Position numbers and translations under genes: made by a program. DNA of 64,000 bases. It comes from Lysobacter silvisoli. Its GTDB lineage: Bacteria; Pseudomonadota; Gammaproteobacteria; Xanthomonadales; Xanthomonadaceae. Position 1 is the stretch's first letter; every line of letters begins with the position of its first letter. The notes beneath the pieces were generated by a model. The model searched no databases and was not told the origin of the DNA. It worked only from the letters and a program-made list of their open reading frames with translations. The stretch is taken from contig NZ_QTSU01000003.1 of assembly GCF_003382365.1 (NCBI RefSeq), positions 186,001 through 250,000 on the forward strand, read 5' to 3'. Shown here piece by piece: positions 29,341 to 59,157 of this stretch.

Positions 29341-29775
29341 TCACACCCCTCTACCGTGCACGAAACACGAAGCACCTTTGTTGGGCTTGGAAAGTGTTTC
29401 GTGTGCACTGTTAAGCATGGCATTGACGATCACCGGACTTGGAGCATGCTCGCCAGCTGTCATCTCCCTTAAGGCGTGCAAGACCCGGGCTGCGTCGCGT
29501 AGAGCTCCAGCCTCATGAAACTCTCGGCACTTCGATCCAGCGCTTATTGCATAGGGCACGCAACGGTCAATGAGTTTTGAATACCGTTGGTCCATAGATG
29601 CGATGCGCGCAGTTAGATCCACATTTCCCGCCTTCGCGGAAAGCTGCATTCTTTGAATTTCGACTCTCTGCTCGTCCAGCATAGCTGATAGCCGCTGACA
29701 TTCCGTCGGAAGTGCGTTGTCGTTAGCGCAAGCACATAAGACCAAGCAAAGAGCGATCATCGATAAGCGCGTCAT
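29341..29775 (-). CDS. Small lipoprotein, candidate immunity protein of the RHS toxin
   Basis: 144 residues. The N-terminus is a lipoprotein signal with lipobox LCAC near residues 13-16 (MIALCLVLCACANDN). The mature part is mostly helical and charged (SAMLDEQRVEIQRMQLS, TARIASMDQRYSKLI) and contains several cysteines. Its start codon overlaps the stop of the RHS gene by four bases, so the two are translationally coupled. GC content is visibly lower than in the RHS repeat region. The position is that expected of an immunity gene for the RHS tip, and a lipoprotein would protect the periplasm. No homologue is recognised; the immunity role is inference. Confidence 0.65.
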   Translation of the reverse strand: MTRLSMIALCLVLCACANDNALPTECQRLSAMLDEQRVEIQRMQLSAKAGNVDLTARIASMDQRYSKLIDRCVPYAISAGSKCREFHEAGALRDAARVLHALREMTAGEHAPSPVIVNAMLNSAHETLSKPNKGASCFVHGRGV

Positions 29776-32700
29776 GGCACTGGACCTCTAGGAGCTTTCG
29801 TTCCAACGATTCCCAAATTGCAAAGCTGACCAACGATGTCCCACCACGGCACAGGATCAACCAAATTCAAAGTCTTCTTCTCTTCCTCCAACTCGCAATC
29901 CACTGCTCGTGTCATTGCCTCGCAAGCTCTAACTGCATCTGGAACACAGGATGGGCCCGCATTGGGTGACTGGCAGGCCCAGTAAATTCGCGTGCACTCA
30001 TTCGCCACGTTTTGCCTGCGCTCGCTACTCCATTTCTTGAAATGATCTTCCTTCCTTTTATGCCAGTATCCTCCCGTTCCGGTTATTAGCTCACATACAC
30101 CTTGAGCTACCATCTGACCAAGAAGTCCATACTGATCGAATATAAGAAAAGGATTTGCATCGCTATATAAGTATGTATTTAGGCCGCCGTTAAGCCCTAT
30201 CGGATCACTGGTGCTGTAGCGACCGACAGCCGCCTCATAATCTCGGAAGTAGTTGTAGTTCAGCCCACTGGCCGCGTCATACCGCTGCCCCGGATAGCGC
30301 AGATCGAATACGAAGCTCGTCCCGTCCAGGTCCGGGTCCTGCTCCGGCGGACTCGCGCCGAACGCCTCGCCCTTGAGCTGCCACTTCCACACGCTCACGT
30401 TGCGCTGCGGGTCGATCACCTCGCGCGGCGTGCCCAGGTGGTCGGGCTGGATGTAATGCAGTTTCTGCGCGGCACCGCTGCCGACCAATAGACCGACAGG
30501 GTAGTTATCCAGCCAGATTACCTGCTGTAGCGGCGTGGCGCCGTCGTACTCGCCCAGCCATTGCCCGGCCTCGTCGTACACGCTCAGCTTGCTGTTGGCG
30601 CCCAGGTAACGGCGCACCTGCTCGCCACGGCCGTTGTAGGCGTAGTTCATGACGACCGCGTTGTTGACCTGGGTCTGCACCAGGCGGTTGCTGTCGTCGT
30701 AGCTCAGCTGCAGCGCGGTGCCGCCCACGGACGTGGTGTTGCCGTTATCGCTGTAGGTGCGTACCACCCCGCCCACCGTGCTCAGGCGGTGGCTGGTGCT
30801 CGGGTAGGTGTAGGCCGCCGTGCCGGCCGACGTGGTCTTGCCGGTGCGGTTGCCGGTGGCGTCGTAGGTGTAGGTCTCGATCGGCGTGCCGCTGGGGCCG
30901 TCCTGCAGCTGGTCCAGGCGGCTCAGGGCGTCGTAGCGGTAGCGGGCGTCCAGCGCGTTGGAGCGGTTGCGCAGTTCGCTGATGCGGCTGACGTTGTCCA
31001 GGGTGAAGTCCACATACAGGCCGCTGCCCGACGTGTCGGCTACCCGAGTGGGGGCGTAGTTCTGGTCGTACAGGCGCTGCAGCACCCGGCCGTTGTCGTA
31101 GGTCCAGGCGGTGACCGGGCCGAAAGCGGCGTACTGCACGTTGTGGACCAGGCGCTGGCGGCTGCCCCCCACGGGGGTGTAGCCCACTTCGCTGATGCGG
31201 CCCTGGGCGTCGCGCTGGTAGTCCACCGCCGTGCCGTCGGGGTAGACGATCCCGGTCAGGGCGCCGCCCAGGGCGTAGCTGTAGCGCGTGGCCAGGGTGG
31301 TGCCGGTGGCGAAGGCGGTGGTCTTGCGGACCAGATTCCCGAAGCGGTCGTAGCAGTAGTCGGTCTGGCCGCTGGCGTCGCTCATCCGGGTCAGACGACC
31401 CTGGGTGTAGGTCTCTCCCGTGGTGCAGCTGGCCTGGGCGGTGTCGTAGCTGTAGGCCACGTTGAGGCTGGCCGTGGGGTAGGTCACCGCGGTCAGGCGG
31501 TTGAGCGCGTCGTACTGGTAGCCGCTGGCCACGGCGCGCGCGTCGGTCTGGCCGGTGCGGTTGCCGGCGGCGTCGTAGCTGTAGGTGGTGACGCCGGTGT
31601 CCGGGCTGGTCAGCTGGGTCAGGTCGCCCAGGCCGTTGTACTGGTACTGGGTGTGCAGGCCCTTGGGATCGGTGACCTTGGTCAGGCGGTCCAGAGCGTC
31701 GTACTGGAACTGGGTGTTGGCGTTGATCCCGGCGGTGTCCTGCAGGGTCTGGGTCAGGCGGCCCAGCGGGTCGTAGGCGTTGTCGGTGACCGTGCCCTGG
31801 GCGTCGGTGGTCGTGTCCAGGTTGCCGGCGGCGTCGTAGACGTAGCCGGTGGCGTGGTTGTAGGCGTCCTTGCCGGTCTTGAGCTGGCCCAGCTGGTTGT
31901 AGACCCGCGACAGGGTGCGCTTGAGAGCGCCGCCGCTGTCTTTGGTGTCTTCCCGGGTCCGGCTGCCGGCGTTGTCCAGGGTGTAGACGATCTGGTTGCC
32001 GGCGTTGTCGGTGATGCTGGTCAGCCGGTGCGCGGCGTCGTAGCCGAACACGGTATAGGCGCCGTCGGGCTGGGTGATCTGGCTGACCAGGCCGGTGGGC
32101 GTGTAGGTGTAGCGGGTGATGGCGTCGTCGGTTTCGCTGCCGGCGTTGGGGCCGCGGACCTTGCTGGCGGCCAGCCAGCCGCGCGGGTGGTACTCCAGGT
32201 CGGTGACCACGCCGTTGGCGTCCTTGACCGAGCGCGGGCGGCCGGCGCCGTCGTAGGCCAGGGTCTCCACCACCTGGCCCAGTGCATTGGTGACCTTCCA
32301 CAGGTCGCCCTTGCGGTGCGGGCAGGTGGCCGGGGCGCTGGTGCAGCTGGCGTCGTCGCTGGCGTAGTAGGTGTAGGTCGTGGTGTCGTTGAGGTCGGTG
32401 CGTGGGCCGTTGACCGCGGTGACCAGACCCAGCAGCGGGCAGGTGCCGGCGGTGATGTCGGCCTGTTCGCAGTAGGTCGTGGTGCTGCTGCGGGTGTTAG
32501 TGGGAGTGGCCGGGTCGATCGACGTGGCCGTCAGCGGCTGGCCGCGGGTGTTGTAGGTCCAGGTGGACTTGCCGACCAGGACGTTGGCGTTGTTGTAGGT
32601 GCGGCGCTCGCTGGGCGCGGCCCAGGGTGCGTTCCAGTCGGTCTGGATGGTGCGCGTGGTCGCTATGACCGTGCCCCAGAAGTCCATGCCTTCGGTGCGG

Positions 32701-34529
32701 CTGGTCTGGCGCCAGTTGGTGTAGACGTAGGTGGTCCGTGAGCCCTGCTGGTCAATGGACCAATTGAGCCGGTCTCCCGAGTAGTTCGCGTGCGTGGTGT
32801 AGCCCAACGAGCCATCGGTACTGGCCAGCGTCATGTGGCTCGGCGCTTTGCCTGTGTTGTGCGACAGGTAGGAATAGGTCTTGGTAGCGCCCTGCGGCAG
32901 CGTGACCTTGGATTTGCCGTCGGCCTGATACTCCACCGTTACGCGGCCGGTGCCGCCGGCATGCTCGCTGAGCGTGGCGCGGCCGCGGTCGTCGTAGGTA
33001 TAGGTGGCGTAACGAACGCCGTACTCATCCAACACACCGGTGAGGTAGTTGGAAAAGAACTGCGGATCGCATCCGGAGATGGCAGCGCCAGCCGCGTCAC
33101 GGCAGAGCTTGGTCGTCTCCGCGTACAGATACTCGCGGCTGTCCATGGCCGACGGTGCGCCATGACTGGCGTACTTCACCCGGCCCAGGCTGTCGTAGGT
33201 GTAGGCCGCCATAGCCACGCCGTCGGCGCTGATGGCGGTGATGCGCGGCGGCGCACCTTCTGCGCCACCCGTGGGCGTGGCGGTGTAGGCGAAACTCAAG
33301 CTGCGACCCGACGGGCTATGTACCTTCAGCAGTAAGCCCTCTTTAAGACACTGCCCCAAGGCGACGGCCGCAGCTTCGCAGTACTCGTAAGAGAACACAC
33401 GGTCGCCGTTGCGGCTGTACTTCATACGGCCGGCTTCGTCGAACCAGCGCACCTGGCCGGGGCCGGTGGTGACGCGCCAACGCGCGTAGGCCACCGGATC
33501 GGGCTCGCGGAACACGGCCGTCGACGTCGAGGTCCGCGAAACGAAATTGGACGCGTCGATCTTGACCAGAAGCTCGTAGTAGCCGTCGCTCTGGCGCCAG
33601 CTTTCCGGCTCTCCGCTGACCATATTCAGGCGATCGGAGAAAGAATGCGCCCAGTTGTTGCCCATGCCCGAATGCAAGGACAAGTCGCTGCTCGAGTTAT
33701 AGGAGCGGCGGAAGGCAATGCCTTCCCACGAGAAATCTTCCTCGTTGTACTCCTTATTGCCGGTGGCGGCGACCAGCGGGTTGCCGTCCTTCGGGCATTT
33801 GCTGCATTGCGCCGCGCGATAGACGACGATCTGCCCTTGCGCATAGCTGCGGCAGACCTTGGACCATACCGGAACATCGCCGCTGAACGCGGTCTGAGCC
33901 ACGTAGAACTGCGGGCATTCGAACCAGTCGGTCCTATTAACGCTGCTATCTTCGGTAACGCCATTGGTTGTCAATGTCGCTCGAAATCCCCGCATTTCAG
34001 GCCGGCTCGGATTGCGATTGACGAAGGCGTAACGGTCCGATGAGATCCAAGCGCCCCATCCGCTGGGCTCGGTCAGTACATAACTTCCAAAGAACGAGCC
34101 GCTCCAGGGCGAACCGGCGTAGGGGTAATTGTTAAGGATATCCTGCTGGAGTTGGACCTCATCCTCACACCCTCGGTGGTTGGGATCGGCTGGCACGCTC
34201 GGACAGTCACGCGTGTGCCCTTGAACGCTGGTGGCGTAGTAGTCCCCGATGAAGGTGGCCGCCGTGTCTGGCAGGTTGTACTGCAGCAGCAACGTGCCTT
34301 CAGTGAGTTGCTGCTCGCTGACCCGAACCAATTGCGCATTGCCCACGGCTGGCGAAGGCTCGGTGCGGATATAGGCTTCAGCTTCGCCCAATGTCTTGAA
34401 GCATTCGGATTGTTGTCCGGGCATATAGCGGGCGGCGCAGTACTGATCGGCCGCCAGAGATACACGGGGCAAGGCCAGCAGTACGAGCAGCATCAGCCAT
34501 TGGATCGCGTTCTTCCCCAGCGTGCTCAT
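29772..34529 (-). CDS. RHS repeat protein with variable C-terminal tip
   Basis: 1585 residues from the ATG at 34527-34529. A signal peptide (MLLVLLALPRVSLAA) is followed by a cysteine-containing N-terminal region. A DUF6531-type start of the RHS shell (AFRRSYNSSSDLSLHSGMGN) comes next. Then come about 900 residues of YD repeats (YTYDSLGRV, YQYDALNRL and many more). The core ends with the conserved SGLNYNYFRDYEAAVGRY and DPIGLNGGLNTYLYSDANP. The last roughly 110 residues, rich in Cys, Trp and charged residues, are unlike the rest and are encoded by AT-richer DNA. That is the layout of polymorphic toxins, whose tip carries the activity. The tip matches no fold recognised here. No vgrG, paar or tcA-type partner is in the window. 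Confidence 0.88.
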   Translation of the reverse strand: MSTLGKNAIQWLMLLVLLALPRVSLAADQYCAARYMPGQQSECFKTLGEAEAYIRTEPSPAVGNAQLVRVSEQQLTEGTLLLQYNLPDTAATFIGDYYATSVQGHTRDCPSVPADPNHRGCEDEVQLQQDILNNYPYAGSPWSGSFFGSYVLTEPSGWGAWISSDRYAFVNRNPSRPEMRGFRATLTTNGVTEDSSVNRTDWFECPQFYVAQTAFSGDVPVWSKVCRSYAQGQIVVYRAAQCSKCPKDGNPLVAATGNKEYNEEDFSWEGIAFRRSYNSSSDLSLHSGMGNNWAHSFSDRLNMVSGEPESWRQSDGYYELLVKIDASNFVSRTSTSTAVFREPDPVAYARWRVTTGPGQVRWFDEAGRMKYSRNGDRVFSYEYCEAAAVALGQCLKEGLLLKVHSPSGRSLSFAYTATPTGGAEGAPPRITAISADGVAMAAYTYDSLGRVKYASHGAPSAMDSREYLYAETTKLCRDAAGAAISGCDPQFFSNYLTGVLDEYGVRYATYTYDDRGRATLSEHAGGTGRVTVEYQADGKSKVTLPQGATKTYSYLSHNTGKAPSHMTLASTDGSLGYTTHANYSGDRLNWSIDQQGSRTTYVYTNWRQTSRTEGMDFWGTVIATTRTIQTDWNAPWAAPSERRTYNNANVLVGKSTWTYNTRGQPLTATSIDPATPTNTRSSTTTYCEQADITAGTCPLLGLVTAVNGPRTDLNDTTTYTYYASDDASCTSAPATCPHRKGDLWKVTNALGQVVETLAYDGAGRPRSVKDANGVVTDLEYHPRGWLAASKVRGPNAGSETDDAITRYTYTPTGLVSQITQPDGAYTVFGYDAAHRLTSITDNAGNQIVYTLDNAGSRTREDTKDSGGALKRTLSRVYNQLGQLKTGKDAYNHATGYVYDAAGNLDTTTDAQGTVTDNAYDPLGRLTQTLQDTAGINANTQFQYDALDRLTKVTDPKGLHTQYQYNGLGDLTQLTSPDTGVTTYSYDAAGNRTGQTDARAVASGYQYDALNRLTAVTYPTASLNVAYSYDTAQASCTTGETYTQGRLTRMSDASGQTDYCYDRFGNLVRKTTAFATGTTLATRYSYALGGALTGIVYPDGTAVDYQRDAQGRISEVGYTPVGGSRQRLVHNVQYAAFGPVTAWTYDNGRVLQRLYDQNYAPTRVADTSGSGLYVDFTLDNVSRISELRNRSNALDARYRYDALSRLDQLQDGPSGTPIETYTYDATGNRTGKTTSAGTAAYTYPSTSHRLSTVGGVVRTYSDNGNTTSVGGTALQLSYDDSNRLVQTQVNNAVVMNYAYNGRGEQVRRYLGANSKLSVYDEAGQWLGEYDGATPLQQVIWLDNYPVGLLVGSGAAQKLHYIQPDHLGTPREVIDPQRNVSVWKWQLKGEAFGASPPEQDPDLDGTSFVFDLRYPGQRYDAASGLNYNYFRDYEAAVGRYSTSDPIGLNGGLNTYLYSDANPFLIFDQYGLLGQMVAQGVCELITGTGGYWHKRKEDHFKKWSSERRQNVANECTRIYWACQSPNAGPSCVPDAVRACEAMTRAVDCELEEEKKTLNLVDPVPWWDIVGQLCNLGIVGTKAPRGPVP

Positions 34530-34703
34530 ACGACCGTCCCTTGATGCGTGTTGGATTTGTGCACCTATCATCCGGGAAGCCCGTCTCACCGTTCAAGACA
34601 GCACGCGGCACGTTTTATGACGGTTGCGCCAACCGCCAATTGCAATCAAGCGCAACGCCAGGCGCGAGATGAAAAAGCGTGATACGCACCACGCAGCGTC
34701 TCC

Positions 34704-48849: not shown

Positions 48850-49821
48850 ATGGCCGACCCCGTCCAGCCCACGCCGCTACTGCCCTTCGACGCGGCCCAC
48901 CCCGATCACGCCCGTTACCAGAAGGTGTTCGATGGCGTGAAAGCCACCGGGCAGTGGAACGACGCCGAGTCGCGCAACGTCGCCGCCGGCCTCTACGACC
49001 AGCTCCGGCGCAACCCGCAAATGGGCGACTTCGACCGCATCGTGGTCGGCAAACCCGACGCCGCGGTGCCCTCGGTGTTCGCGATGAAAGGCGCCGGCAA
49101 CCCGCCCGACGCGCAGCCCTGGGTCAGCGTGCCCACGGCCATGAGCAAGACCGGCGCCGACCAAACCCTGGCCGCCTACGCGCACACGCCGCAGGTGGGC
49201 AAGGACGGTTACCTGGTCGATCCCGACATCACCAGGAAGCCGATCCCGGCGCTGGAGAAGGGGCCGCTCAAGGACATCAACGCGGTCGTCATGCACCGCA
49301 CCGAGGGCTCCAGCGCGCAAGGCGCGTTCAACTCCTTCAAGACCGGTACCGGCACCCACTTCCTGATCGACAAGGACGGCACGATCTACCAGACCGCCAG
49401 CCTCAACGAGCACACGCAGCACGTGGGCAAGATCCGCGGCCGTTGCATGGAGGAAGGCACCTGCTCGAAAGAGGAAAAGGCCTTCTTCGACAAGACCGGC
49501 TGGAACCCCAAGGCCATCCACGACCACGAGAAGGCCAAGCCCTACCCCGAACGCTTCCCGATGAATTCCGACAGCGTCGGCATCGAGGTGGTCGGCAGCT
49601 ACAACGCCAAGACCAAGACCTGGGACGCGCCGACACCCGAGCAGACCGCGTCGATCAACAAGCTGGTGGGCATCTTGCAGAAGGAATACGGGCTCAATGA
49701 CAAAGACGTCTACAAACACGATGCCATCTCGTACAAGACCCAGGGCGAAGGCGCGGATCTGTACGTGCCTAACCGCACTCCCCCTGCTCCTGTCGTGCAG
49801 CCATCCGGGCCCAGCCGCTGA
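48850..49821 (+). CDS. Peptidoglycan amidase with XVIPCD-like type IV secretion domain
   Basis: 323 residues, no signal peptide. Residues 13-112 (FDAAHPDHARYQKVFDGV, SRNVAAGLYDQLR, DFDRIVVGKP, PSVFAMKGAG, then VPTAMSKTGADQTL) read like the XVIPCD, the recruitment domain of Xanthomonas/Lysobacter type IV secretion killing effectors. In known effectors this domain is usually at the C-terminus; here it is N-terminal. Residues 140-308 are an amidase_2/PGRP domain with likely zinc ligands His149 (AVVMHRTEG) and His290 (YKHDAIS), plus THFLIDKDGTIYQ and DSVGIEVVG. It would cut N-acetylmuramoyl-L-alanine bonds in rival cells. The next gene overlaps it and encodes a probable immunity lipoprotein. Confidence 0.82.
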   Translation: MADPVQPTPLLPFDAAHPDHARYQKVFDGVKATGQWNDAESRNVAAGLYDQLRRNPQMGDFDRIVVGKPDAAVPSVFAMKGAGNPPDAQPWVSVPTAMSKTGADQTLAAYAHTPQVGKDGYLVDPDITRKPIPALEKGPLKDINAVVMHRTEGSSAQGAFNSFKTGTGTHFLIDKDGTIYQTASLNEHTQHVGKIRGRCMEEGTCSKEEKAFFDKTGWNPKAIHDHEKAKPYPERFPMNSDSVGIEVVGSYNAKTKTWDAPTPEQTASINKLVGILQKEYGLNDKDVYKHDAISYKTQGEGADLYVPNRTPPAPVVQPSGPSR

Positions 49822-50185: not shown

Positions 50186-50333
50186 CCGCACCATCGCCTT
50201 CAATGCGTAATCCGATGATGTGGCTGACCCCGCATCCTTATCTGCTGGGCTACGGATTTACTCCTGTGAACAAGCCCGCCGCATCGTCGGCATAAAACTT
50301 CAGCAGGTACGACAGCGACATCGCAGCCCGCTC

Positions 50334-50610
50334 CTAGTCTTTGATGGGTGGGTTTTGTGGACTCTTGGGTACCGTGAAATGGCGAACGCCTACGATCACC
50401 CACTTTCCGTCCACGTACTTCATGTCCGTGATGGTGACCGTGCAGGTATCTGCACCGAGCGCACAGTTGATGATACGTGTGCCATGGGTATTCCCCCTCC
50501 CGATTTGCAAGCGCATTCTGCGCCTGCGCACATAAAATAACGGCCATCATTGCTGCCATGATGAGAACCCATCCAAAGCCGCACTTTGCCCCGGCGACGG
50601 CATTTTCGTC
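50334..50610 (-). pseudogene. Possible frameshifted small exported protein
   Basis: The minus strand reads a hydrophobic leader (GFGWVLIMAAMMAVILCAQA) in one frame at about 50500-50590. After a C/G-rich run (plus-strand TTCCCCCTCCCG, 50491-50502) the adjacent frame continues as protein-like sequence (GTRIINCALGADTCTVTITD, VDGKWVIVGVRHF) to a stop at 50334. A one-base change in the run would join them into a small exported protein of about 85 residues. A clear start codon was not fixed. The rest of the 600-bp interval before capV shows no gene. Low confidence. Confidence 0.3.
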
Positions 50611-50794
50611 AGAGTAGGGTGGAAACGACGAACATCTTCGCGCCTCCGTAAGGTTGCTCAGTCCCGTAGATGCGTAGCCGCCGCATACGGAGCGGAGCAG
50701 CTGCGCAGCACTCTTTCAGGGAGCGAGCAAGGGAAGGCTGATTGTAGGTCCCTGTTCTGCGTTAGGCGGGACATCAGCTGTACGTACCCTGCGA

Positions 50795-51802
50795 TCAACT
50801 GCGAGACAGGAAGACGTCAGCCAAAGTTGGACCGTGCTTCTCGACTGTGCTCAAAGCCGCGCTTGGCAGGTGGAGTGACGCCCGATCATAGTCATCCAGG
50901 GAGATAGGGGGGGACGCCGAGTCGGGAACCAAGCGCATCACGCGCTCGGCCCCCAACAAAAGCTTCGCTTGACCGAGCGCGTTCTGGGATTGGAATGCGA
51001 TTGCACCGTCGATGACAGTTCGCCAGGAAAACAGGCCTCCCCAGCGCATCATGGCATCAGACACTTTGTAAGGCTCATCTCCGCAGCCAAGGCTAAGGAC
51101 ACGAATGCGATGACGGTCAATGTCGAAGGCCGTCATCGCGTCCACAACCCCCACCATGATAGGATTGTTGGCCCAGATGCCCCCATCAACGAAGCGATAT
51201 CCGCCCGCCGGCAACGGCTGGAAAAATGTGGGTGCAGCAGCCGTAGCCATCGCAACCGTTGTCATCGGCTGGACCGCATCCTTGACGAAGTCAGGATGGT
51301 GCGGTGTCTTGAAGATGTAGACGTCACCAAACGTGCCGTCACACGAAGGAATACACAGCCGACTTGTAGTCTGGCCGAAGCGGGTGTCCCCGAAGGTTTC
51401 CGCAAGCAAGCTGGCAAGTGCGGCGCGGTCGTAGCGATGGTAGGCAAGGTTGCGCATACGAGCCCATGCGCGACCCAGTTTGCCAAACCGAGGCTCAGGA
51501 AAGATTGTCTTACCGTGATCGAGATAGAGGTTCGCCATCTCACGGGCCCGGATGCGCATGGACAGACCGAGCGCGATGATCCCGCCGGTAGACGTGCCGG
51601 TAATCATGTCGAAGTGGTCGGCAATCGACTCGCCACCGAGATGCTGTTCTTCTAGCTCGGCCAGGACGCTGGCCGGATAGATGCCCTTAATGCCACCGCC
51701 GTCGATGGACAGGATCTTGAACTCACGGTCTGCGGGCCAAGGCTGCGGCACGCGACGGCGCGTCAACGCGCCCCGGGAGCGTGGCTCGACGTCCATGGTC
51801 AT
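50795..51802 (-). CDS. capV: CBASS effector phospholipase CapV (patatin-like)
   Basis: 335 residues. The patatin domain is complete: LSIDGGGIKGIYPA near residues 31-44 (oxyanion loop), the nucleophile elbow GTSTGG with Ser71, and FVDGGIWANNP with catalytic Asp206. In CBASS, CapV is switched on by the cyclic dinucleotide made by the CD-NTase and hydrolyses membrane phospholipids, killing the infected cell before phage release. Its ATG overlaps the stop of the E2-like gene by four bases, so it is the last gene of the operon. Sequence and context together support CapV over a housekeeping patatin. Confidence 0.9.
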   Translation of the reverse strand: MTMDVEPRSRGALTRRRVPQPWPADREFKILSIDGGGIKGIYPASVLAELEEQHLGGESIADHFDMITGTSTGGIIALGLSMRIRAREMANLYLDHGKTIFPEPRFGKLGRAWARMRNLAYHRYDRAALASLLAETFGDTRFGQTTSRLCIPSCDGTFGDVYIFKTPHHPDFVKDAVQPMTTVAMATAAAPTFFQPLPAGGYRFVDGGIWANNPIMVGVVDAMTAFDIDRHRIRVLSLGCGDEPYKVSDAMMRWGGLFSWRTVIDGAIAFQSQNALGQAKLLLGAERVMRLVPDSASPPISLDDYDRASLHLPSAALSTVEKHGPTLADVFLSRS

Positions 51803-52254
51803 TTGGCCACCACCGGATGACGCCCGCCGCCGGTCCAGATGCCCGTGGCCCGCCAGCCTTCGTAGCTCGCTAGCCAGTCAATCGTCCAAGGGATGATGGT
51901 ATCGGCCAAGGCCATGTTGCGTGTCCATTCATCGGTGGCTGGGTCGAACAGGCAAAGGCGGGACTTAGTCGGCGTGTTCTGGCTCCAGTAGAGATGGGGC
52001 GTTGACTCGCCGGGCGCAAAATCGCTGGTCAATTCGAGCTCGGGCGCGACGAGCGTTACCTGGGCACCGCAGGTGCCAAGAACGCGCAGGTTGTCGATCT
52101 GTCGCGGCTCCACCGCATTGACGCGCACCCAGTAAGTGCGCGCCAGCGGCCGGAGGGGTCCTTCCCACACCACATGCCAGCCGCCGTTGAAGACGACCTC
52201 AAACGCCGGGAACTGCTGGTGCATCCGACGAATCTGCTCGCTCATGTGCATCAT
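51799..52254 (-). CDS. Stand-alone E2-like protein of type II-short CBASS
   Basis: 151 residues, overlapping both neighbours by four bases. It has the prokaryotic E2-like pattern: a WEGPLRPLARTYWVRV beta region, TPHLYWSQN with His87, and RLCLFDP with Cys101 as the probable catalytic cysteine. The trailing segment EWTRNMALADTIIPWTIDWL is followed by the family end (WRATGIWTGGGRHP). In type II CBASS, an E2-containing protein forms a thioester with the C-terminus of the CD-NTase and primes it. The short variants keep only the E2 and lack E1 and JAB modules, as here. Family call rests on recognition of the pattern and on operon position. Confidence 0.75.
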   Translation of the reverse strand: MMHMSEQIRRMHQQFPAFEVVFNGGWHVVWEGPLRPLARTYWVRVNAVEPRQIDNLRVLGTCGAQVTLVAPELELTSDFAPGESTPHLYWSQNTPTKSRLCLFDPATDEWTRNMALADTIIPWTIDWLASYEGWRATGIWTGGGRHPVVAK

Positions 52255-53525
52255 GCGCAGGGCTCATCGCCGAAGTGCGTGTGCTTGGGGGTGGCGCGCA
52301 CGATGCCGGGCACCGCCGCCACGCCAAGGGCGGCAACTTCGGCTGCGGTGGGCAGCACGATACGGCCGCTGCCGGGGGTATGGCGCGACTGCCCGTAGAC
52401 AATCTGCTGGCCAGTGCGCTCGTTGAACTGCTTGACCGCCTCGATGGTGGCCCGCTCGCCGAACATTGTCGCCAAGGTCGCCTGCATCTGCACCAGGTCG
52501 ACATCGCCACGCAGCTGCTGCAGCTTCTCGATGAACTCGTCCAGGTCACCGATGAACACCTGTTGTGCCATCAGCGTGTCCGGCCAGCGGTCGGTAAATA
52601 CGTCCGGCGCACAGGCTGGATTGGCTACGATGACCGTGCGCCCCCGGTCCTGAGCCTCCTGCAGCACACCCCGCAGCTGACCGGCTTGCAGCAGCAGTTC
52701 TTCCGAGAGCGTGCCCGTATGGCCCGCGTTGTCCGCAACCACTTTGGCCATCATCACCGACGGCGGGCACCGGACATCACGTTGGTCGTAACGCACATTG
52801 CGGTAGCGTTTGAGCAGCTGCAGCGCGATGACTGCCATGGACTTGGCATGCATGGGTTCCTGCTCGGGCACTTGCTCCACCTCCGCCTGTGCCTCAACCA
52901 ATAGGTGCGCCGTCTCGAACTCGCGCGCGCGAGCCATGAAGGCCGCCTCGAACAGTACATCCTTGGGCGTGTGCTCGATGAAGTGCTGGGCGAAGCCCCA
53001 AGGATTTGCAACGATCTTGGTGTCATCGTCCGTGGCGTGCCTTTTGGGTGCGTGATAGATGTACCCGCACTTTTCCGGCATGGTCTCGATGCGCACCATG
53101 GGGGTGACGTCCAGATGCATCCCATCGGCATACTGGACTTGGACGCAGCGGGTGCACCGGGTGGTCTTGCCGTAGTAGCGCGAACCCGGCTCGCCAGCGA
53201 TGGCTTCTTCCAGCAGGTCGAGCATGCGGTGCGGCGGCGTGTCAGACGGCAGGTCGAGCGTGGCGATTAGGTCGATATCGAACTCATCGTTCTCCAGCTT
53301 CGAGGAAATGGTCGCGCCGATGGCCATCGACCCCTGGGCATAGACCAAGGTGACCAAGTCATGCAGCGGGCTGTCCTCGCGCTGGATGTATTCCTGGATG
53401 GCGTGGAAGCGGGCGACCGCCTTCTTGTAGTTGCTCTCGCTCAACTGCACGCGAATGGCGATGTCGGCCAACAGGGCGTCCAACGGTTCGGCGAAGGGGG
53501 GTGGGAGGGACTGCAGATGCTTCAT
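52251..53525 (-). CDS. CBASS CD-NTase (cGAS/DncV-like nucleotidyltransferase)
   Basis: 424 residues from the ATG at 53523-53525; upstream extension is Arg/Pro-rich and unlikely. The nucleotidyltransferase core is clear: AQGSMAIGATIS near residues 64-74, EFDIDLIATLD with metal-binding Asp83 and Asp85, and MHLDVTPMVR with the third Asp near 139. A helical OAS-type C-terminal domain follows. On phage infection such enzymes make a cyclic di- or trinucleotide that activates CapV. The C-terminus (HFGDEPCA) is the expected site of modification by the E2-like protein. Clade and product are not assignable by eye. Confidence 0.9.
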   Translation of the reverse strand: MKHLQSLPPPFAEPLDALLADIAIRVQLSESNYKKAVARFHAIQEYIQREDSPLHDLVTLVYAQGSMAIGATISSKLENDEFDIDLIATLDLPSDTPPHRMLDLLEEAIAGEPGSRYYGKTTRCTRCVQVQYADGMHLDVTPMVRIETMPEKCGYIYHAPKRHATDDDTKIVANPWGFAQHFIEHTPKDVLFEAAFMARAREFETAHLLVEAQAEVEQVPEQEPMHAKSMAVIALQLLKRYRNVRYDQRDVRCPPSVMMAKVVADNAGHTGTLSEELLLQAGQLRGVLQEAQDRGRTVIVANPACAPDVFTDRWPDTLMAQQVFIGDLDEFIEKLQQLRGDVDLVQMQATLATMFGERATIEAVKQFNERTGQQIVYGQSRHTPGSGRIVLPTAAEVAALGVAAVPGIVRATPKHTHFGDEPCA

Positions 53526-53586
53526 TTCTGTCTCCGGGAGCGGGACCGCATCGCGGCCGGCACGGGGGTACCGGCCGCGACGGGGC

Positions 53587-53769
53587 TTACTTGGTCTTGG
53601 TGGGGTCCACCAAGGTGTAGGTCTGGCCCGGCTTGGGCGTGGGCGGCATGGGCTCGTCGCGGACGACCGTCCGCTCCGGACCCTGGCCACCACGCGGGCC
53701 GTTGATCTGGTACTGGCCGGACTTCGGGGCCGGCTGCCCGGGCTTGAGCCCGCTCGTCTTGCTGGTCAT
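53587..53769 (-). CDS. YjzC-like small protein, first gene of the CBASS operon
   Basis: 60 residues from the ATG at 53767-53769, preceded by GGAGAA. The sequence MTSKTSGLKPGQPAPKSGQY, then INGPRGG and ERTVVRDEPMPPTPKPGQTY, matches the pattern of YjzC-like proteins, small Gly/Pro-rich proteins of unknown function. It lies 61 bases before the CD-NTase gene and is the first gene after the shared promoter, so it is transcribed with the CBASS genes. A regulatory or target-binding role can only be guessed. It may also be an unrelated passenger. Confidence 0.75.
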   Translation of the reverse strand: MTSKTSGLKPGQPAPKSGQYQINGPRGGQGPERTVVRDEPMPPTPKPGQTYTLVDPTKTK

Positions 53770-53869
53770 GCGTGTAGTTCTCCGAATGAACCCAGGGCCA
53801 GGGACCCCGGGCAGGTTGCCGCCCCGTGCGACGCCGCCCAATCGGCACCTGCAACCGATCAGTTAAGTT

Positions 53870-53897
53870 AGTTTAGCCAAGTTATACTACATGTCAA
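53870..53897 (-). promoter_or_regulatory. Promoter of the CBASS operon
   Basis: On the minus strand TTGACA (53892-53897) and TAAACT (53870-53875) are 16 bases apart, a consensus -35 and a four-of-six -10, about 100 bases before the YjzC-like start. The region is strikingly AT-rich for this genome. It contains AAGTTA-like direct repeats (53865, 53879, 53896) and a TTAGTT/AACTAA inverted pair (53868-53873, 53900-53905), which are candidate CapW contacts. Confidence 0.5.
53883..53888 (+). promoter_or_regulatory. Candidate -10 element of capW
   Basis: TATACT on the plus strand, 57 bases before the capW start, matches five of six consensus positions. No good -35 is visible upstream. It falls between the -35 and -10 of the divergent CBASS promoter, so one bound repressor could cover both. 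Confidence 0.4.
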
Positions 53898-53944
53898 GTA
53901 ACTAATGGTGTGATAGGCTTGCCGCTGTCCCTACAGGTCGCCCC

Positions 53945-54835
53945 ATGGACGCCCCCTCTTCCTCCCCCACCACGTCCCCGCGCTGGGGGCAGGTCCGTCG
54001 CCTGGCCTTCATCGACCTGCGCCTGCAGTACGACGGGAAGATCAACCGGACCGATCTGACGACCTTCTTTGACGTGTCGTCTCCCCAGGCCTCAGCCGAC
54101 TTACGCCTCTACGACGACATGGCCAAGGGCAACATGTCCTATGACGCCAGCGCGAAGGCTTACGTGGCGCAGCCTGGTTTCACGCCGCAGTTTGGACAGG
54201 CCTCTGCGACCAGTTACCTGAACGAGCTCTACCGACTTGCATGTGGCGTCATCAAGCGCGATGAGAGCTTTGTGGGCTTCGTTCCCCCCACCGGTATCGT
54301 CGCGACGCCGGCGCGCAAGATCTCCTCGCCTGAGGTTGCGTCGTGGGTTCAGGCCATCCGCGATAGACGGGCCGTGGCTGTTGAATATCAGTCAATGGAG
54401 CAGGACACGCCGGCGGCGTTGATCCTCAGCGCGCACGCAGTGGGCTTCGATGGGCTGCGCTGGCACATACGTGCTTGGTGCCACAAGCGCCTAGCCTTCC
54501 GGGACTTCGCGATCGGTCGTTTAGTGGTCGTCGATGATGATGTTGCCGCACCCCAGATAGACCCGAGCAATGACTTGGGCTGGGAGACCAAGGTCAATTT
54601 ACACTTAGTGCCGCACCCTGGCTTGACGCCGAGCCAGCGCGAAGTCGTCATGAAGGACTACAACATGGACGATGGGAAATTGGTTCTTCCCTGCAGACAG
54701 GCCATGCTGTTCTACACGCTTCGCCATCTCAACCTGCTCTCCCTAGAACAGGAGAAAGATCCAGCGCGTCAGCATGTGGTCGTGGACAATCCAGACCAAG
54801 TGCGCGAGTGGCTCAAGCAAGATCGCAAGGCTTAA
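53945..54835 (+). CDS. capW: CapW, WYL-domain regulator of CBASS
   Basis: 296 residues. Residues 13-75 form a winged helix-turn-helix (LAFIDLRLQYDGKINRTDLTTFFDVSSPQASADLRLY). Residues 130-200 are a WYL domain (RRAVAVEYQSMEQDTPAALILSAHAVGFDG) in which the name-giving triplet reads Trp173-His-Ile. A C-terminal WCX-like extension follows. CapW repressors are known to sit next to CBASS operons, repress them, and release DNA when damage or infection is sensed through the WYL domain. Here the gene is divergent from the CBASS operon across an AT-rich 175-bp gap, the expected arrangement. Confidence 0.85.
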   Translation: MDAPSSSPTTSPRWGQVRRLAFIDLRLQYDGKINRTDLTTFFDVSSPQASADLRLYDDMAKGNMSYDASAKAYVAQPGFTPQFGQASATSYLNELYRLACGVIKRDESFVGFVPPTGIVATPARKISSPEVASWVQAIRDRRAVAVEYQSMEQDTPAALILSAHAVGFDGLRWHIRAWCHKRLAFRDFAIGRLVVVDDDVAAPQIDPSNDLGWETKVNLHLVPHPGLTPSQREVVMKDYNMDDGKLVLPCRQAMLFYTLRHLNLLSLEQEKDPARQHVVVDNPDQVREWLKQDRKA

Positions 54836-54851
54836 CTAGAATCAGGCCCGT

Positions 54852-56990
54852 TCAGGTCAGTGTGTTGTCCAAGTGGCTGGGGAAGGAGCCGACGATGACG
54901 CGCTTATCTTCGTGCCAATGGAAGTAGAGACGGAAATGGAATCTGGGATTCTTATCCGTTCCGCGCTTCACGTGCATGTCTAGCGTGACGCGGCGATTCA
55001 TATACGTCGTTGTGTAACTGTCTTTAAAGCGTCGATGTTCCGCGCCCAGGCCGACTTCGGATATAGCAATGCGAAGGCGCGCCTTCTCTGCCTCAAGTGT
55101 GGCGTTATCTACCTCGCCGCGCCGACAGGGTACGTACGTTGAAGCCAGAAAGTGCAGCACCTCATAGGCGAAGGAGACATCCTCGAATTCTGAGTCACGA
55201 GCGGCACGGATGGCCTTAGGCGTTACGACAACGGCGTCACCAAGGTAGTCTGCGCACCAGCTCTCCAAGTCATCCCAGCTATTTGGAAAAGGCACCGTCG
55301 TGAGCGGGACGTTGTCACTGTGTTGCAACGCGCTAATGCGGCTCTGCAGTCGAAAGCTTTGTGCCTTGAGCTGATCTCGCTCATCGCGCAGAGCATCGCG
55401 CTCGCGACGCGCCTGCTTCAATTGCTGGTCCAGCGAATGGCTTTCGCCTTCAAACATCTGGCGTAGCGACTCTTCATCAGCCAACTGCTTGCGCAGCGCC
55501 TGCACGATCTCCTCGCTGTGCATGCCTGCTCTGGAGGCCTGCGACTGCGCAATGGCTCTGGCGTCATCGATCTGCCGGCGCAAAACGCGCTCGCGAATTC
55601 GATCGAACGGTGGAACCGCATCCTCACGATCTTGCGCTTGCAGTGAGGCGTATGCCGCCTCCCGAAGGAGGTACTGCTCGATCAAGTTGAGGGTCAGACC
55701 CTCGGACTTGAGCGTCGAAGGTTCCCAAACAGGGTGGTGCTCAGGTGGGTCGTCCGCTGAAAACCCGGGGCGGAACAGGCGCACGCATGCACCTGCCACA
55801 GCGAAGCGTTTGCTAAGTGCGTCGGTCAGGCGCCAGCTCATTTCCCGAGAGATGACGTAAACCTTGGCCAGGCCGCGTAATCGCTTAAGCCTGGCAGGGT
55901 CCAGGAAGGTGACGGGCCGATTGTCGCGCAGATAGGTCGACAAGACGATCGCAGGCCGGTGACGGCGTGGAGATTCCAGCGTTTCCAACATCGCCTTCAG
56001 CGCCGAAACGCTGTCGACCATCGTTGCCTCGGAGAACAACTGCTCGTTTGTCTCTGGATCCAGGAGTCCAACGTCGGCTAGTAGATCCGACACCAGACCG
56101 GGCACGCTGATTGGCGGAGGCGGTTGGTCCGCCGGCGAGATGGCAGTGAGACGGATAGCGACGCCTGGTGTAGGTTGGGCTTGCACCAACACCATTTCCA
56201 CGCGCCAACGACGCCCCGGAAGGACGTTGTCAGCGGTTTCGACTTGCAGGGCCCAGATGCCGGCCCATGCCACTGCAATTGCGGTGTTCTTGCCGTCGTT
56301 GGAGCGGGCCTCAAAGCCGTCTTGTCCGTTGCCCGGAACCTTTATCCCTTTCCGGACAAGCCACTTCATCGCAACGGTGCGCGCCCGCTCAAAGCTGTCT
56401 GGCAATGCCAAGCGCCCTTCAAGTGCCATCACCGGATCGGCGCGCGTCGAGTGAGTCGCGGCGAGGGACGTGGGAGGCAGCTTGCGCCAGCTTGCCTTCC
56501 TGGTTGCCGGCGCGGTAGGCAGCGCTTTAGTGATGCCTGCGGGGATCTCGTCACCCGCCTCTATCGGCTCAGACGCCGGCTCAAGCCGCAGCCGCAGTGC
56601 AGGCGCGGACGTCTGCACCAATCCTTGGATCGCATGAGCCAGTGGATGCCGAGCGAACTTGACCGCATCGGCGGTGTCGGCCGACGCCGGGCTATAGATG
56701 CCTTCCCACAGCGTGCGATCCAACCTTAGGCGACGCCGGGCGTGGCGTGTCTGTCGCAGCTGCAATTGGAACCGCTGCAGACGCCTAAGCAGTGAGCTCT
56801 TGCCGTTCCAGGGTACGTTTCGAATACGCTGGGCGAGCTGAACTGACTGGTGGGCCCACTGCTTGATCGTCGCCTCCGTGGGAGGAAGCGCCGAAGATTC
56901 CCGATCGAAGTGCGCAATGAGCTCGTCCAGCTCGCGCGTCAGTGCAGCCTTAGCCGCCTTGGGGTCGGCGGCGTTAGGGACAATCTCCAA
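54852..56990 (-). CDS. Large unknown protein beside CBASS, coiled-coil
   Basis: 712 residues, not recognised. Residues 185-285 look like a compact domain (LPDSFERARTVAMKWLVRKG, AVAWAGIWALQVET, GRRWRVEMVLV). Residues 345-422 contain a second conserved-looking block (RPAIVLSTYLRDNRPVTFLD, LAKVYVISREMSWRLTDAL, GACVRLFRPGF). About residues 495-557 are a charged coiled coil. The C-terminus (LHFLASTYVPCRRGEV, RLYFHWHEDKRVIVGSFPSH) looks like a small alpha/beta domain. No signal peptide, membrane helix or obvious nuclease motif. It converges on capW with 16 bp between stops, inside the accessory island, so a defence-related role is plausible. Moderate GC suggests transfer with the island. Confidence 0.75.
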   Translation of the reverse strand: MEIVPNAADPKAAKAALTRELDELIAHFDRESSALPPTEATIKQWAHQSVQLAQRIRNVPWNGKSSLLRRLQRFQLQLRQTRHARRRLRLDRTLWEGIYSPASADTADAVKFARHPLAHAIQGLVQTSAPALRLRLEPASEPIEAGDEIPAGITKALPTAPATRKASWRKLPPTSLAATHSTRADPVMALEGRLALPDSFERARTVAMKWLVRKGIKVPGNGQDGFEARSNDGKNTAIAVAWAGIWALQVETADNVLPGRRWRVEMVLVQAQPTPGVAIRLTAISPADQPPPPISVPGLVSDLLADVGLLDPETNEQLFSEATMVDSVSALKAMLETLESPRRHRPAIVLSTYLRDNRPVTFLDPARLKRLRGLAKVYVISREMSWRLTDALSKRFAVAGACVRLFRPGFSADDPPEHHPVWEPSTLKSEGLTLNLIEQYLLREAAYASLQAQDREDAVPPFDRIRERVLRRQIDDARAIAQSQASRAGMHSEEIVQALRKQLADEESLRQMFEGESHSLDQQLKQARRERDALRDERDQLKAQSFRLQSRISALQHSDNVPLTTVPFPNSWDDLESWCADYLGDAVVVTPKAIRAARDSEFEDVSFAYEVLHFLASTYVPCRRGEVDNATLEAEKARLRIAISEVGLGAEHRRFKDSYTTTYMNRRVTLDMHVKRGTDKNPRFHFRLYFHWHEDKRVIVGSFPSHLDNTLT

Positions 56991-57244
56991 GGCCTCGCGC
57001 CCTCGCCAGTGACTGGTATCACAAGATCATAGTTGCTTCCGGGCCTTGTATCTAAGTATTTTGTCTCGCGCTGCATTGAGACGCGCCTTGGCAAGCGCCA
57101 GCAATGTAGATGAATGCCGCACACCCCACACGATGCTGAGCGGCGACAACCGTCGAAGAGTCGGACCCAGTATCGAGGGAAGGGCCCAATAGCCCTCTTG
57201 TCTCGTCTTAGCGCCATGTTGGCGAACTACACGGCCCGCTGCTC

Positions 57245-57662
57245 TCAGGTTTGTAGTCGTTTGCGGATTGAGAGACGCAATGCAGGATAGAGATCACGCG
57301 TAATAGCAACTTTACCTCCCTTGGCCACAAACGCCATGGGTTCACTAGTTGAACACCACCGTCCTTGCGATTGCCTTAAACAAAGCAGCAGGTTTCTCGT
57401 CAGATGGTTATGACCAAATAGACGATCTACTCGCCAAGCGCTTCTAGGCGCTATCGACTCTGGATGAACCCACACCTCATGCAAGGATAGTGCTCGGTCT
57501 ATGGCGGCGAGGTCGCCTCGCATTACTTCGATTTATTCAGCCAAGCTAGATGCCCGAAATGCCGATGCTTTAGCCTCTTTAGCATCTCGCTCAAGGTCGT
57601 AAGCTAGCCTTGCACGACGGTCCACCAGCTACTTTAATGAGGGAGGGATCTTGGTTCGCATG
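57245..57662 (-). pseudogene. Degraded small ORF of the 'DLAAIDRAL' type
   Basis: The intact 3' part (92 codons, 57245-57523) reads MRGDLAAIDRALSLHEVWVH, then FGHNHLTRNLLLCLRQSQG and a basic end. Upstream the same protein continues as SLK-stop-LVDRRARLA, then in the next frame as DLERDAKEAKASAFR, SSLAE-stop-IEVMRG. So there are two nonsense codons (TAG and TAA, each one C-to-T change from a Gln codon) and one frameshift. The restored protein would be about 138 residues with an N-terminal coiled coil. This is the inner edge of the accessory island; 56991-57244 shows no gene. Confidence 0.6.
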
Positions 57663-57725
57663 ACCCAATCCTAGCCATTGGCGCACCTACCTTCATTGGG
57701 CAGGTGCGCCTTCATGGCGCATTGA

Positions 57726-57760
57726 AATAAAAAGGGCGCCCTGTAGGCGCTCTTTTTATT
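57726..57760. terminator. Bidirectional terminator at island edge
   Basis: AATAAAAAG plus GGCGCC on the left pair with GGCGC plus CTTTTTATT on the right around a CTGTA loop, with A- and T-runs on both sides. It can serve the alpha/beta hydrolase gene on the minus strand (24 bases beyond its stop) and block read-through from either direction. Confidence 0.85.
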
Positions 57761-57783
57761 GCCTTGGATGATGCGGGTCCGAC

Positions 57784-59157
57784 TCAAGGTTTGGCGCTCT
57801 TCGCGACCGGCGGCGCGGTCGGCGGCCCGCCCGCCAACACCTGCGCGTCGCCGTACGGGCCGCGGCCGAGCTTGCCGGTCTTGATCCAGTCCAGCTGCAT
57901 GCGGAAGTAGCCGTCGGCGATGCGGATCGGGGTGCGGCTGCCGTCGGCGGCGGTTTCGAACTTGAGGATGCCGTGGTCGGTCTCGGGGAAGACCGCCACG
58001 CTCAGCGGACGGCCGGCGGCGACCACCGACATCAGGCGATCGCGGGTTTCCTCCGGCGGCGCCTCGGCGTCGGCGCCGGCCAGCATCCACAGCTGCGGCT
58101 GCTTGAGTTCGCGCAGCACCGGCATGGGGTCGTAGTCCCAGGTGGTGCCCTGCTCCAGCTCGGCCTGCTTGGCCCTGAGCTGGTCGGGCGTGTGCGAGAC
58201 CACCAGGCCGGTGAACTCGCCCTTCATCGCCTTCCACCACGGCTCCTCGCCGTACTTCTGGCGCACGGCGGTGAGCGCGTCCCAGCCGTCCTTGCCGCGC
58301 GAGGCGACGATGGTGCCGGTGGCGTCGGTGACTTCGCGCGCCTTGGCCTGCACGTCTTCGCCGTAGCCGGCGTTCTTCAGGTCCAGCGCGACCTGGCTGG
58401 CGTCCTCGCCCAGCGGGCTGATCGCCATGCCGTAGCCGACCACGACGAAAGCCGCCTCGGGGGTCTTGCTCGCCGCCAGCGGCGCGACCCAGCCGGCCTG
58501 GCTGCCGCCGAGGTAGCCGATGCGGCTGGCGCGCTTGCCGGCCAGGCGCTTGGCTTCGCGCAACGCGGCGCTGGCGTCGTCGGACAGCAGGTAGAAGTCC
58601 TGGGTGTACTTGCCGCCGGACTCGCCGGTGCCGCGCTTGTCGTAGACGAACACGCCCACGCCGTTGGCCGGGTACAGGTTCTGCATGTGGTAGCGGTCGA
58701 CGCCGGAATAGCTCTCCGAGCCGTGCACGGTGACGATCACCGGCACCGGGCCGGCGCCGCGCGGCATGACCAGGCGGCCGCGCAGGTTGACGCCGTTGCC
58801 TTCGAAGCGGGTCTCGGTGATGTCGAACTGCAGCTTGCGGCCGTTGACGCCTTCGAAGCTGATCTTGTCCTGCTGGCAGCTGCCGAAGCTGACCTTGACG
58901 TTGTCGGGGCGGTCGGTCCAACCCAGGGTGCTGGTCCACGCGCCGTCGCGCTCGCTGAGGCGGCCGGTGCGGCCGTCGATCAGGCGCCAGCGCAGCGCGC
59001 CCTTGTCGGCGTTGGCCAAGTCGACCATGCGGCCGTCGTCGAGCTTGTAGGCGCCGGCGTAGCAGCTGTTGGAATCGGTGGCGTTGGAGGCCAGCGCCAT
59101 GGGGCTGATCAGCGCGGCGGTCAGGGCCAGGACGAGCGGAAGACGGGCGTGAGGCAT
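57784..59157 (-). CDS. Secreted alpha/beta hydrolase (acyl-peptidase-like)
   Basis: 457 residues with a signal peptide (LPLVLALTAALISPMALA). An N-terminal beta-rich domain (residues 30-120) precedes the hydrolase domain: VTVHGSESYSG near residues 143-153, YDKRGTGESGG near 171-181, the nucleophile elbow GGSQAGW near 217-223, and FPETDHGILKF with the catalytic His near 402-412. This fits S9-like or esterase-type secreted hydrolases of xanthomonads. Substrate unknown; peptides are suggested by the DUF885 gene upstream. It is the last gene before the terminator. Confidence 0.85.
   Translation of the reverse strand: MPHARLPLVLALTAALISPMALASNATDSNSCYAGAYKLDDGRMVDLANADKGALRWRLIDGRTGRLSERDGAWTSTLGWTDRPDNVKVSFGSCQQDKISFEGVNGRKLQFDITETRFEGNGVNLRGRLVMPRGAGPVPVIVTVHGSESYSGVDRYHMQNLYPANGVGVFVYDKRGTGESGGKYTQDFYLLSDDASAALREAKRLAGKRASRIGYLGGSQAGWVAPLAASKTPEAAFVVVGYGMAISPLGEDASQVALDLKNAGYGEDVQAKAREVTDATGTIVASRGKDGWDALTAVRQKYGEEPWWKAMKGEFTGLVVSHTPDQLRAKQAELEQGTTWDYDPMPVLRELKQPQLWMLAGADAEAPPEETRDRLMSVVAAGRPLSVAVFPETDHGILKFETAADGSRTPIRIADGYFRMQLDWIKTGKLGRGPYGDAQVLAGGPPTAPPVAKSAKP

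Follow-up and report, generated by a model that had tools for sequence, protein, structure and literature searches.

A type II-short CBASS locus in a variable defense island of Lysobacter silvisoli, and its leading YjzC-like gene

The window, a 64,000-nt stretch of contig NZ_QTSU01000003.1 of Lysobacter silvisoli, very probably carries a type II-short (E2-only) CBASS locus, which lies in a variable defense island of about 7.6 kb and would act by the mechanism proposed below. Gene content, gene order, translational coupling, catalytic residues, the CapW-type regulator, and the island boundaries were all read from the DNA itself; phage protection and a nucleotide product are predicted by analogy with the protein families. 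The CBASS is a further well-formed example of an E2-only locus of CapW type, and its leading gene, a small YjzC-like gene referred to here as S, matters more. S is most likely a damage-controlled accessory and not a core part of CBASS.

The CBASS operon and its island

The features of the locus are given below in window coordinates.

50189..57806, no strand: stretch of ~7.6 kb without counterpart between flanks conserved in close relatives (variable island)
50795..51802, minus: CapV, patatin-type phospholipase effector, 335 aa (PADLOC PDLC00757, 3.1e-110)
51799..52254, minus: E2-like protein, 151 aa, Cys101 in LCLFDP (PADLOC PDLC00877, 5.8e-41)
52251..53525, minus: CD-NTase, 424 aa (PADLOC PDLC00800, 1.7e-152; Pfam SMODS, 1.1e-11)
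53546..53585, minus: GC-rich hairpin (arms of 18 nt, loop of 4 nt) between the S stop and the CD-NTase start, lacking a T-run
53587..53769, minus: S, YjzC-like small protein, 60 aa, leads the operon and is preceded by a GGAG ribosome site
53870..53897, minus: promoter-like TTGACA-16-TAAACT ahead of S, a 10/12 consensus match only
53945..54835, plus: CapW-type WYL transcription regulator, 296 aa, divergent (Pfam WYL PF13280, 9.7e-9)
54852..56990, minus: HEC-07 candidate defense gene, in the same island as the CBASS (PADLOC PDLC04161, 4.2e-102)

The preliminary description had named a CD-NTase, an E2-like protein, CapV, and a divergent WYL gene, and these families were borne out by PADLOC, Pfam, and NCBIfam models, while the ORF list agreed with the coordinates and strands given for all five genes. 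The NTase was placed among the CD-NTases by both PADLOC PDLC00800 and Pfam SMODS, and the PADLOC E-values of the cyclase, E2, and CapV indicate that the placement of these core genes is not due to chance. CapV also matched NCBIfam NF041079 at 1e-75, with 254.9 bits against a cut-off of 200. The NCBIfam cyclase models scored far under the cut-off on the CD-NTase (21.4 vs. 150 bits), and Pfam Prok-E2_A was below its own on the E2-like protein (13.2 vs. 25); recognition of the E2 rests on PADLOC, and that of the cyclase on PADLOC and Pfam (SMODS, DncV-like).

The catalytic motifs were intact, as had been claimed. The CD-NTase carries G65-S66, D83-I-D85, and D139, and its C-terminus reads HFG419-DEPCA; CapV carries DGGGIKG at 34-40, GTS71TG, and D206GG, with Ser71 as the nucleophile and Asp206 present. 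The Ser71 earlier singled out for mutation is this CapV nucleophile and not the motif serine of the CD-NTase, which is Ser66. Among 14 CD-NTase/E2 pairs, the catalytic Cys was kept in all 14 aligned E2s, and 13 of the CD-NTases had a C-terminal Gly with 0 to ~10 tail residues behind it, which fits tail processing; an aromatic residue precedes this Gly in 11 of the aligned CD-NTases.

ATGA overlaps join the CD-NTase to the E2 and the E2 to CapV, so the four-base linkage described for three genes was correct; S ends 61 bp ahead of the CD-NTase and does not overlap it. The type II-short assignment also held, since a single E2 is present and no ORF in the island fits an E1 or JAB gene (ORF list inspected by eye, six main ORFs scanned with HMMs). 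The genes flanking the island are 7969 bp apart here; in four congeners, the corresponding distances are 1588, 1598, 1262, and 3916 bp. A tRNA-linked insertion was considered and rejected, the sole tRNA of the window being at 14641.

The CapW-type regulator and the proposed mechanism

In CapW, a Trp and then a His replace the Tyr, and the combination of CapW with "Type II (short)" CBASS has been published, according to passages of PMC9122588. The WYL protein of the window bears this signature, with W173-H174 in place of Tyr and Arg/Phe/Arg at 186/188/192, in agreement with the divergent CapW of the preliminary description. The scanned region held three promoter-like sites versus 2.1 expected, and the site at 53870..53897 is hence to be read as a consensus match. 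Published CapW sites overlap the -10 element; here, no palindrome over the -10 reached p <.15 in a simple shuffle test.

In a mechanism drawn from the established families, CapW would silence the promoter until phage infection induces single-stranded DNA or damage. Cys101 of the E2 would then trim the CD-NTase tail after Gly419 and conjugate the CD-NTase, also to itself, activating cyclic nucleotide synthesis. The cyclic nucleotide would switch on CapV, which would degrade membrane phospholipid and kill the infected cell. S probably shares this promoter with the CBASS genes, and the hairpin behind it may raise S output above theirs; a folding energy of -38.1 kcal/mol was computed for 53526-53600 (z = -5.6 vs. 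shuffles).

The leading gene S and its neighbors

The name YjzC-like stood at the level of the family and was not reproduced for the window protein alone, which gave no match in PADLOC (0.001), NCBIfam (0.1), or Pfam (even at E ≤ 1). PF14168 (YjzC-like) was matched at E ≤ 1 by 71 of 81 S family members, with a best value of 2.2e-8, and by this profile evidence S probably belongs to the YjzC-like family, at family level only. The profile phrog_3202 (unknown function) was matched by the window protein at 2.6e-9 and by 81/81 members at E ≤ 0.1. Homologues with 55-85% identity to the window copy occur at 80 loci, which span many phyla and include one archaeal MAG. An AlphaFold2 model built with 75 sequences predicts, at a mean pLDDT of 84.5, a small beta protein of three strands. 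It matched no PDB fold at E ≤ 0.001, and a sequence search of the PDB with S gave nothing at E ≤ 1; therefore, no function can be read from the model. S as a classical phage gene was rejected, its phage matches being weak (51 records, E of at least 0.03, those listed belonging to the P22 group).

Five CBASS loci lie beside S (the window, L018, L019, L068, and L089), all of them E2-only and with three effector types between them. At six further S loci a ThiF gene follows S, with multiubiquitin in five. S comes first and on the same strand in these loci, with a gap to the next gene of ~39-99 bp in 10 of the 11 and of 226 bp in L017. Our own gene calls in the relatives missed the L019 E2 and the L089 operon, and both were recovered by tblastn and ORF lists.

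Upstream of S, the scan covered 38/38 first and 19/35 second divergent proteins and found Peptidase_M78 (IrrE/CapP-type) in 11 and HTH_3 in 12 of the 57; downstream, ThiF, Multi_ubiq, and SMODS were found in 6, 5, and 4 of 82. The control consisted of genes lying over 5 kb away from S in the same loci (140 sampled from 289, minus 19 of the window, leaving 121); there, HTH_3 reached 2/121 and the other enriched families at most 1/121, an upper bound because the control table covers the 25 commonest of 150 families. PADLOC detected capH (1.9e-12) and capP (9.1e-40) upstream in L018; an M78 protease accompanies the CBASS in L068 and an M78-type one in L019, and no HTH or M78 control gene was found at L089. 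Of the 16 near-S loci found by a local IrrE profile, 10 had gone into building it, so only six near finds are independent (L023, L035, L048, L061, L072, and L085), versus one far find (L018, which stands in for L002 in this search). CapK/CapS-like pairs tentatively adjoin S at two loci, where HATPase_c scored 27.1 (L093) and 18.7 (L077) against a cut-off of 26.4, the wHTH matches were below cut-off, and no STAS match was found. CapW itself adjoins S in the window locus only; across 110 S loci (L010-L119), its sole tblastn relative lies ~5 kb from S (L078).

From these neighborhoods, we tentatively propose that S may be an accessory family that is mobile, crosses phyla, and is tied to the controllers through which DNA damage governs bacterial immunity, namely CapW here, CapH+CapP-type repeatedly, and probably CapK+CapS, and that it leads E2-type CBASS and multiubiquitin operons; on small Col plasmids, it accompanies an HTH+IrrE pair alone. 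If so, S would act as a common factor, induced by damage, that aids survival of the cell or mobile element or tunes conjugation-based immunity, comparable to the YegP gene that has been described behind CapK+CapS, and a role in the damage response would explain a widespread conserved hypothetical protein.

S could instead be a working part of E2-type systems that binds, is targeted by, or restrains the E2/E1 conjugation machinery and is hence co-inherited. The E2-only nature of all five CBASS loci, the six ThiF loci, and the constant leading position of S speak for this reading, which we nevertheless consider unlikely. E2s of the window type occurred in 9 of 398 genomes, and S was present in the window genome only and absent from the other eight; S is thus not needed for that CBASS type in general. 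It was likewise absent from all 14 multiubiquitin genomes of a Pseudomonadota sample, and S as an obligatory CBASS/Ubl component was rejected on these counts. None of 22 plasmids with a related CD-NTase was among the 30 listed of 36 plasmids with S. Conjugation genes lay beside S in 9 of 80 genome loci and were missing from 71 (tblastn, queries from the loci found), and together with the eight genomes lacking S this makes S a facultative companion. The small gene that the preliminary description counted as part of the locus leads the operon as such a companion. The family alignment, which took in 81 of ~110 S sequences, contains no invariant lysine, which argues against the machinery reading and led us to reject S as a conjugation substrate via a fixed lysine.

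It is similarly improbable that S is an unrelated mobile cassette of promoter, small ORF, and terminator-like hairpin that landed by chance ahead of operons in defense islands. In its favor, S also occurs in viral contigs (22 in IMG/VR), beside TA genes, in small Col-type plasmids, and elsewhere, and a strong hairpin follows 53 of 101 S genes, compared with 23% in a set of 933 other genes. Neither this census nor the IrrE search included 10 loci that were near-duplicate or truncated, and L119 had no usable ORF. The neighbors of S are, however, non-random, as the distance control indicates. As for the locus as a whole, passive retention of a decayed or inactive CBASS is highly improbable, with no stop or frame break in the locus and every checked catalytic residue in place.

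Comparison with known systems

E2-driven processing of the CD-NTase tail was reportedly described by Yan and colleagues in 2024 for the type II-short CBASS of Serratia marcescens. That system reportedly likewise comprises a CD-NTase with a tail after a C-terminal Gly, a single E2, and an effector, without E1 or JAB; the window adds the YjzC-like leader and the divergent CapW-type regulator. Passages of PMC11153139 propose cyclase-cyclase conjugation for a type II short system. The CapW-controlled CBASS of PMC9122588 resembles the window in its divergent WYL regulator with W-H and R/F/R, and its Fig. 1B legend includes type II-short; unlike the window, the three CapW proteins purified there came from type III systems, and no YjzC-like gene was noticed in passages of that paper.

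Tahibacter aquaticus (L018) and a Rhodanobacteraceae MAG (L019) share the order S, CD-NTase, E2, CapV, with S 81-85% identical, but carry upstream HTH and IrrE-type protease genes (the capH/capP match in L018) in place of CapW. Rv1954A is likewise a YjzC-like gene in first position, in the M. tuberculosis higBA operon, whose HigA represses the promoter upstream of it, according to extracts of PMC3912914; that operon is toxin-antitoxin and not CBASS, and the likeness is drawn from its published description. The Bub/multiubiquitin operons controlled by CapH+CapP, CapW, or CapK+CapS also place a conjugation operon behind DNA-damage controllers and have a small additional gene after the controller, and CapW and CapP are ssDNA-responsive, as sections of PMC13373217 report. 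The small gene there is a YegP homologue, with 57 cases, and the main text does not contain "yjzc"; the window instead has a YjzC-like small gene and a CBASS operon.

The window CBASS locus and its leading gene

The locus and its neighbour in the window comprise the following genes.

50795-51802, minus strand: CapV phospholipase effector
51799-52254, minus strand: E2-like protein
52251-53525, minus strand: CD-NTase
53587-53769, minus strand: S, the 60-aa YjzC-like small gene heading the operon
53945-54835, plus strand: CapW-type WYL protein
54852-56990: HEC-07 candidate anti-phage gene (PADLOC), sharing the variable stretch of the CBASS

The gene positions of the preliminary description were reproduced exactly, and the CD-NTase, E2 and CapV genes share ATGA pairwise, in line with the four-base linkage that it had claimed; a gap of 61 bp separates the S stop from the CD-NTase start. 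PADLOC models identified the CD-NTase (cyclase PDLC00800, 1.7e-152), the E2 (PDLC00877, 5.8e-41) and CapV (phospholipase effector PDLC00757, 3.1e-110). Pfam matched SMODS, Patatin and WYL, and NCBIfam CBASS_lipase scored above its cut-off, with the NCBIfam cyclase models scoring far under theirs. The expected motif residues are present in the CD-NTase (GS 65-66, D83/D85, D139), the E2 (C101) and CapV (DGGGIKG, S71, D206); Ser71, previously suggested for mutation, exists but belongs to CapV. The CBASS interpretation is supported, and the locus is ordinary in kind.

The name "YjzC-like" applies at family level only: the window S alone matched no Pfam, NCBIfam or PADLOC model, but 71 of 81 relatives matched PF14168 YjzC at E<=1, and all 81 matched phrog_3202 at E<=0.1. 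Searching one genome per species across 84,980 species yielded 139 relatives, the best 80 of which had 55-85% identity; relatives also occurred in viral contigs (22) and plasmids (36 records at E<=0.1). The alignment had 18 invariant columns in the first eight sequences and 6 in 81. A weak match to S was also seen in ORF59/59a of the Salmonella phage P22 group, at E 0.03-0.07 and 46-47% over stretches of some 45-50 residues.

A promoter-like TTGACA-16-TAAACT lies upstream of S, where the scanned region contained three such sites versus a chance expectation of 2.1. The 60 nt 3' of S folded at <= -20 kcal/mol in 53 of 101 S genes, compared with 23% of 933 other genes from the same loci, which were unmatched for coding overlap (Mann-Whitney p 1.8e-13). 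Since the window hairpin lacks a T-run, transcription from S may partially read through it into the CBASS genes.

Conjugation genes downstream of S

The downstream same-strand scan covered 82 proteins from 42 loci, including the window and the comparison locus L002, and gave Pfam counts of ThiF 6, Multi_ubiq 5, SMODS 4, TIR 3, DUF6791 2, Prok-E2_E 2 and Patatin 2. E1/E2 conjugation genes were located behind S in 9/80 genome loci, comprising CBASS (L018, L019, L068, L089) and E1/multiubiquitin operons (L076, L086, L085, L077, L093), and in 0/22 viral loci; the plasmid locus L017 also combines S with a ThiF gene. The only distant E1 match was a weak one about 7 kb from S (L060). Because the query alignment A1 included the window, L002 and L017, their close relatives L018, L019, L076 and L086 were not independent finds; L068, L089, L085, L077 and L093 were, with L077 and L093 mutually similar.

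All five S-bearing CBASS loci, including the window, are E2-only as far as seen. The effector is CapV in the window, L018 and L019, and a SAVED-domain protein in L068. The first gene of L089 encodes an HNH-SAVED effector, and its E2 matched PDLC00859 at 3.4e-81; in the 0.9 kb between this E2 and the contig end, the next open frame (11488-12192) by eye resembled a Tn7-type TnsA protein and not an E1, so this CBASS may be carried on a transposon.

Fourteen CD-NTase/E2 pairs were aligned (window, L003, L018, L019, L068, L089 and eight loci of the Pseudomonadota sample, L150-L152 and L154-L158). The E2 Cys lay in an LC[LM] motif in all 14, and a C-terminal CD-NTase Gly was found in 13, all except L089, with a preceding aromatic residue in 11 and 0 to about 10 residues following; the window CD-NTase ends in HFG419-DEPCA. 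This pattern is compatible with processing and conjugation of the cyclase by E2-only systems; for "type II short", conjugation of cyclase to cyclase is cited in the discussion of PMC11153139.

S is a facultative companion, since most sampled genomes with such an E2 or with multiubiquitin lacked it. In a sample of 398 Pseudomonadota genomes, nine matched PDLC00877, the E2 model, and eight had S (E<=1e-6); the two occurred together only in the window's genome. Multiubiquitin occurred in 14 genomes (12 above cut-off), none of them among the eight with S, and S was absent from flanks of up to 1.5 kb in all 14. Likewise, L003, carrying an E2 and a CD-NTase 48% identical to that of the window, had no S in the 4.2 kb of sequence covered.

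Controllers and other genes beside S

Among 57 divergent upstream proteins, window included, we counted HTH_3 12, Peptidase_M78 11, S24 2, LexA 1 and WYL 1. In the distance control of 121 genes, drawn from these loci at >5 kb from S, HTH_3 was counted twice, and M78, ThiF, Multi_ubiq and SMODS fell outside the 25 commonest families listed, hence at most one each. A local IrrE/M78 profile detected the protease no farther than 2.5 kb from S in 16/101 loci and beyond 4 kb in one, flanks of 5 kb being reached in 147/202 cases; ten of the 16 near loci built the profile, leaving six near versus one far as independent finds. It missed L017 and L086, both M78-positive by Pfam. The divergent pair of L018 matched PADLOC capH (1.9e-12) and capP (9.1e-40). 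CapW adjoins S directly in the window only, with one other relative about 5 kb from S (L078).

Other neighbours were also observed. One related large gene adjoins S in L079, L081, L089 and L092, and was a ribonucleotide reductase by Pfam in the two scanned (L079, L089; class II B12-dependent in L089). A two-gene module, HigB-like (named by eye) and HTH-IrrE fusion, precedes S on the same strand in L042, L044, L045, L057, L080 and L104. On three small enterobacterial plasmids (L010, L011, L012), S is accompanied by a divergent HTH gene (and ImmA/IrrE gene), and no E1/E2 gene is annotated.

Genomic setting and known systems

The genes flanking the window locus (amidase-like, 48850-49821; hydrolase, 57784-59157) were near each other in 4/15 congeners, 1262-3916 bp apart versus 7969 bp in the window. 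Local alignment with three of these four congener sites ended on the left at 50188/50185 and resumed on the right at 57807/57809; therefore, the congener sites lack an equivalent of a window stretch of about 7.6 kb containing CBASS and HEC-07. The G+C content of this stretch is 0.59-0.64, versus 0.66-0.72 immediately outside. HEC-07 had one match among the 15 other congeners, at a different genome position with only 30% identity. The counterpart site in one congener (L177, G698) holds other open frames, so the site looks like a variable spot. A further low-G+C patch of the window contains a long protein, RHS-repeat-like by eye (29772-34589).

The W173-H174 and R186/F188/R192 residues of the window WYL protein match the CapW description in PMC9122588, whose Fig. 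1B legend already includes Type II (short) among CapW-associated CBASS. PMC3912914 describes Rv1954A, YjzC-like and of unknown function, as the first gene of a higBA operon, with an upstream promoter repressed by HigA. Upstream of S in L077 and L093 are genes for a GHKL-type ATPase and a wHTH protein that resemble the CapK+CapS pair of PMC13373217, which reports the pair at Bub operons and, in 57 cases, a YegP homologue after it; of the L077 and L093 genes, only the L093 ATPase passed the Pfam cut-off, and Pfam detected no STAS domain in them. According to PMC13373217, CapW and CapH+CapP react to single-stranded DNA, and one or the other occurs at 219/544 Bub operons. PMC4963859 places 70% of multiubiquitin proteins near TA-like loci with COG2856/DUF955 (IrrE-type) proteins. 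The association of controllers with conjugation is therefore already known. A YjzC-like gene recurring in this setting did not come up in searches of open-access literature, and the added value of the locus is this gene, S, and its controllers.
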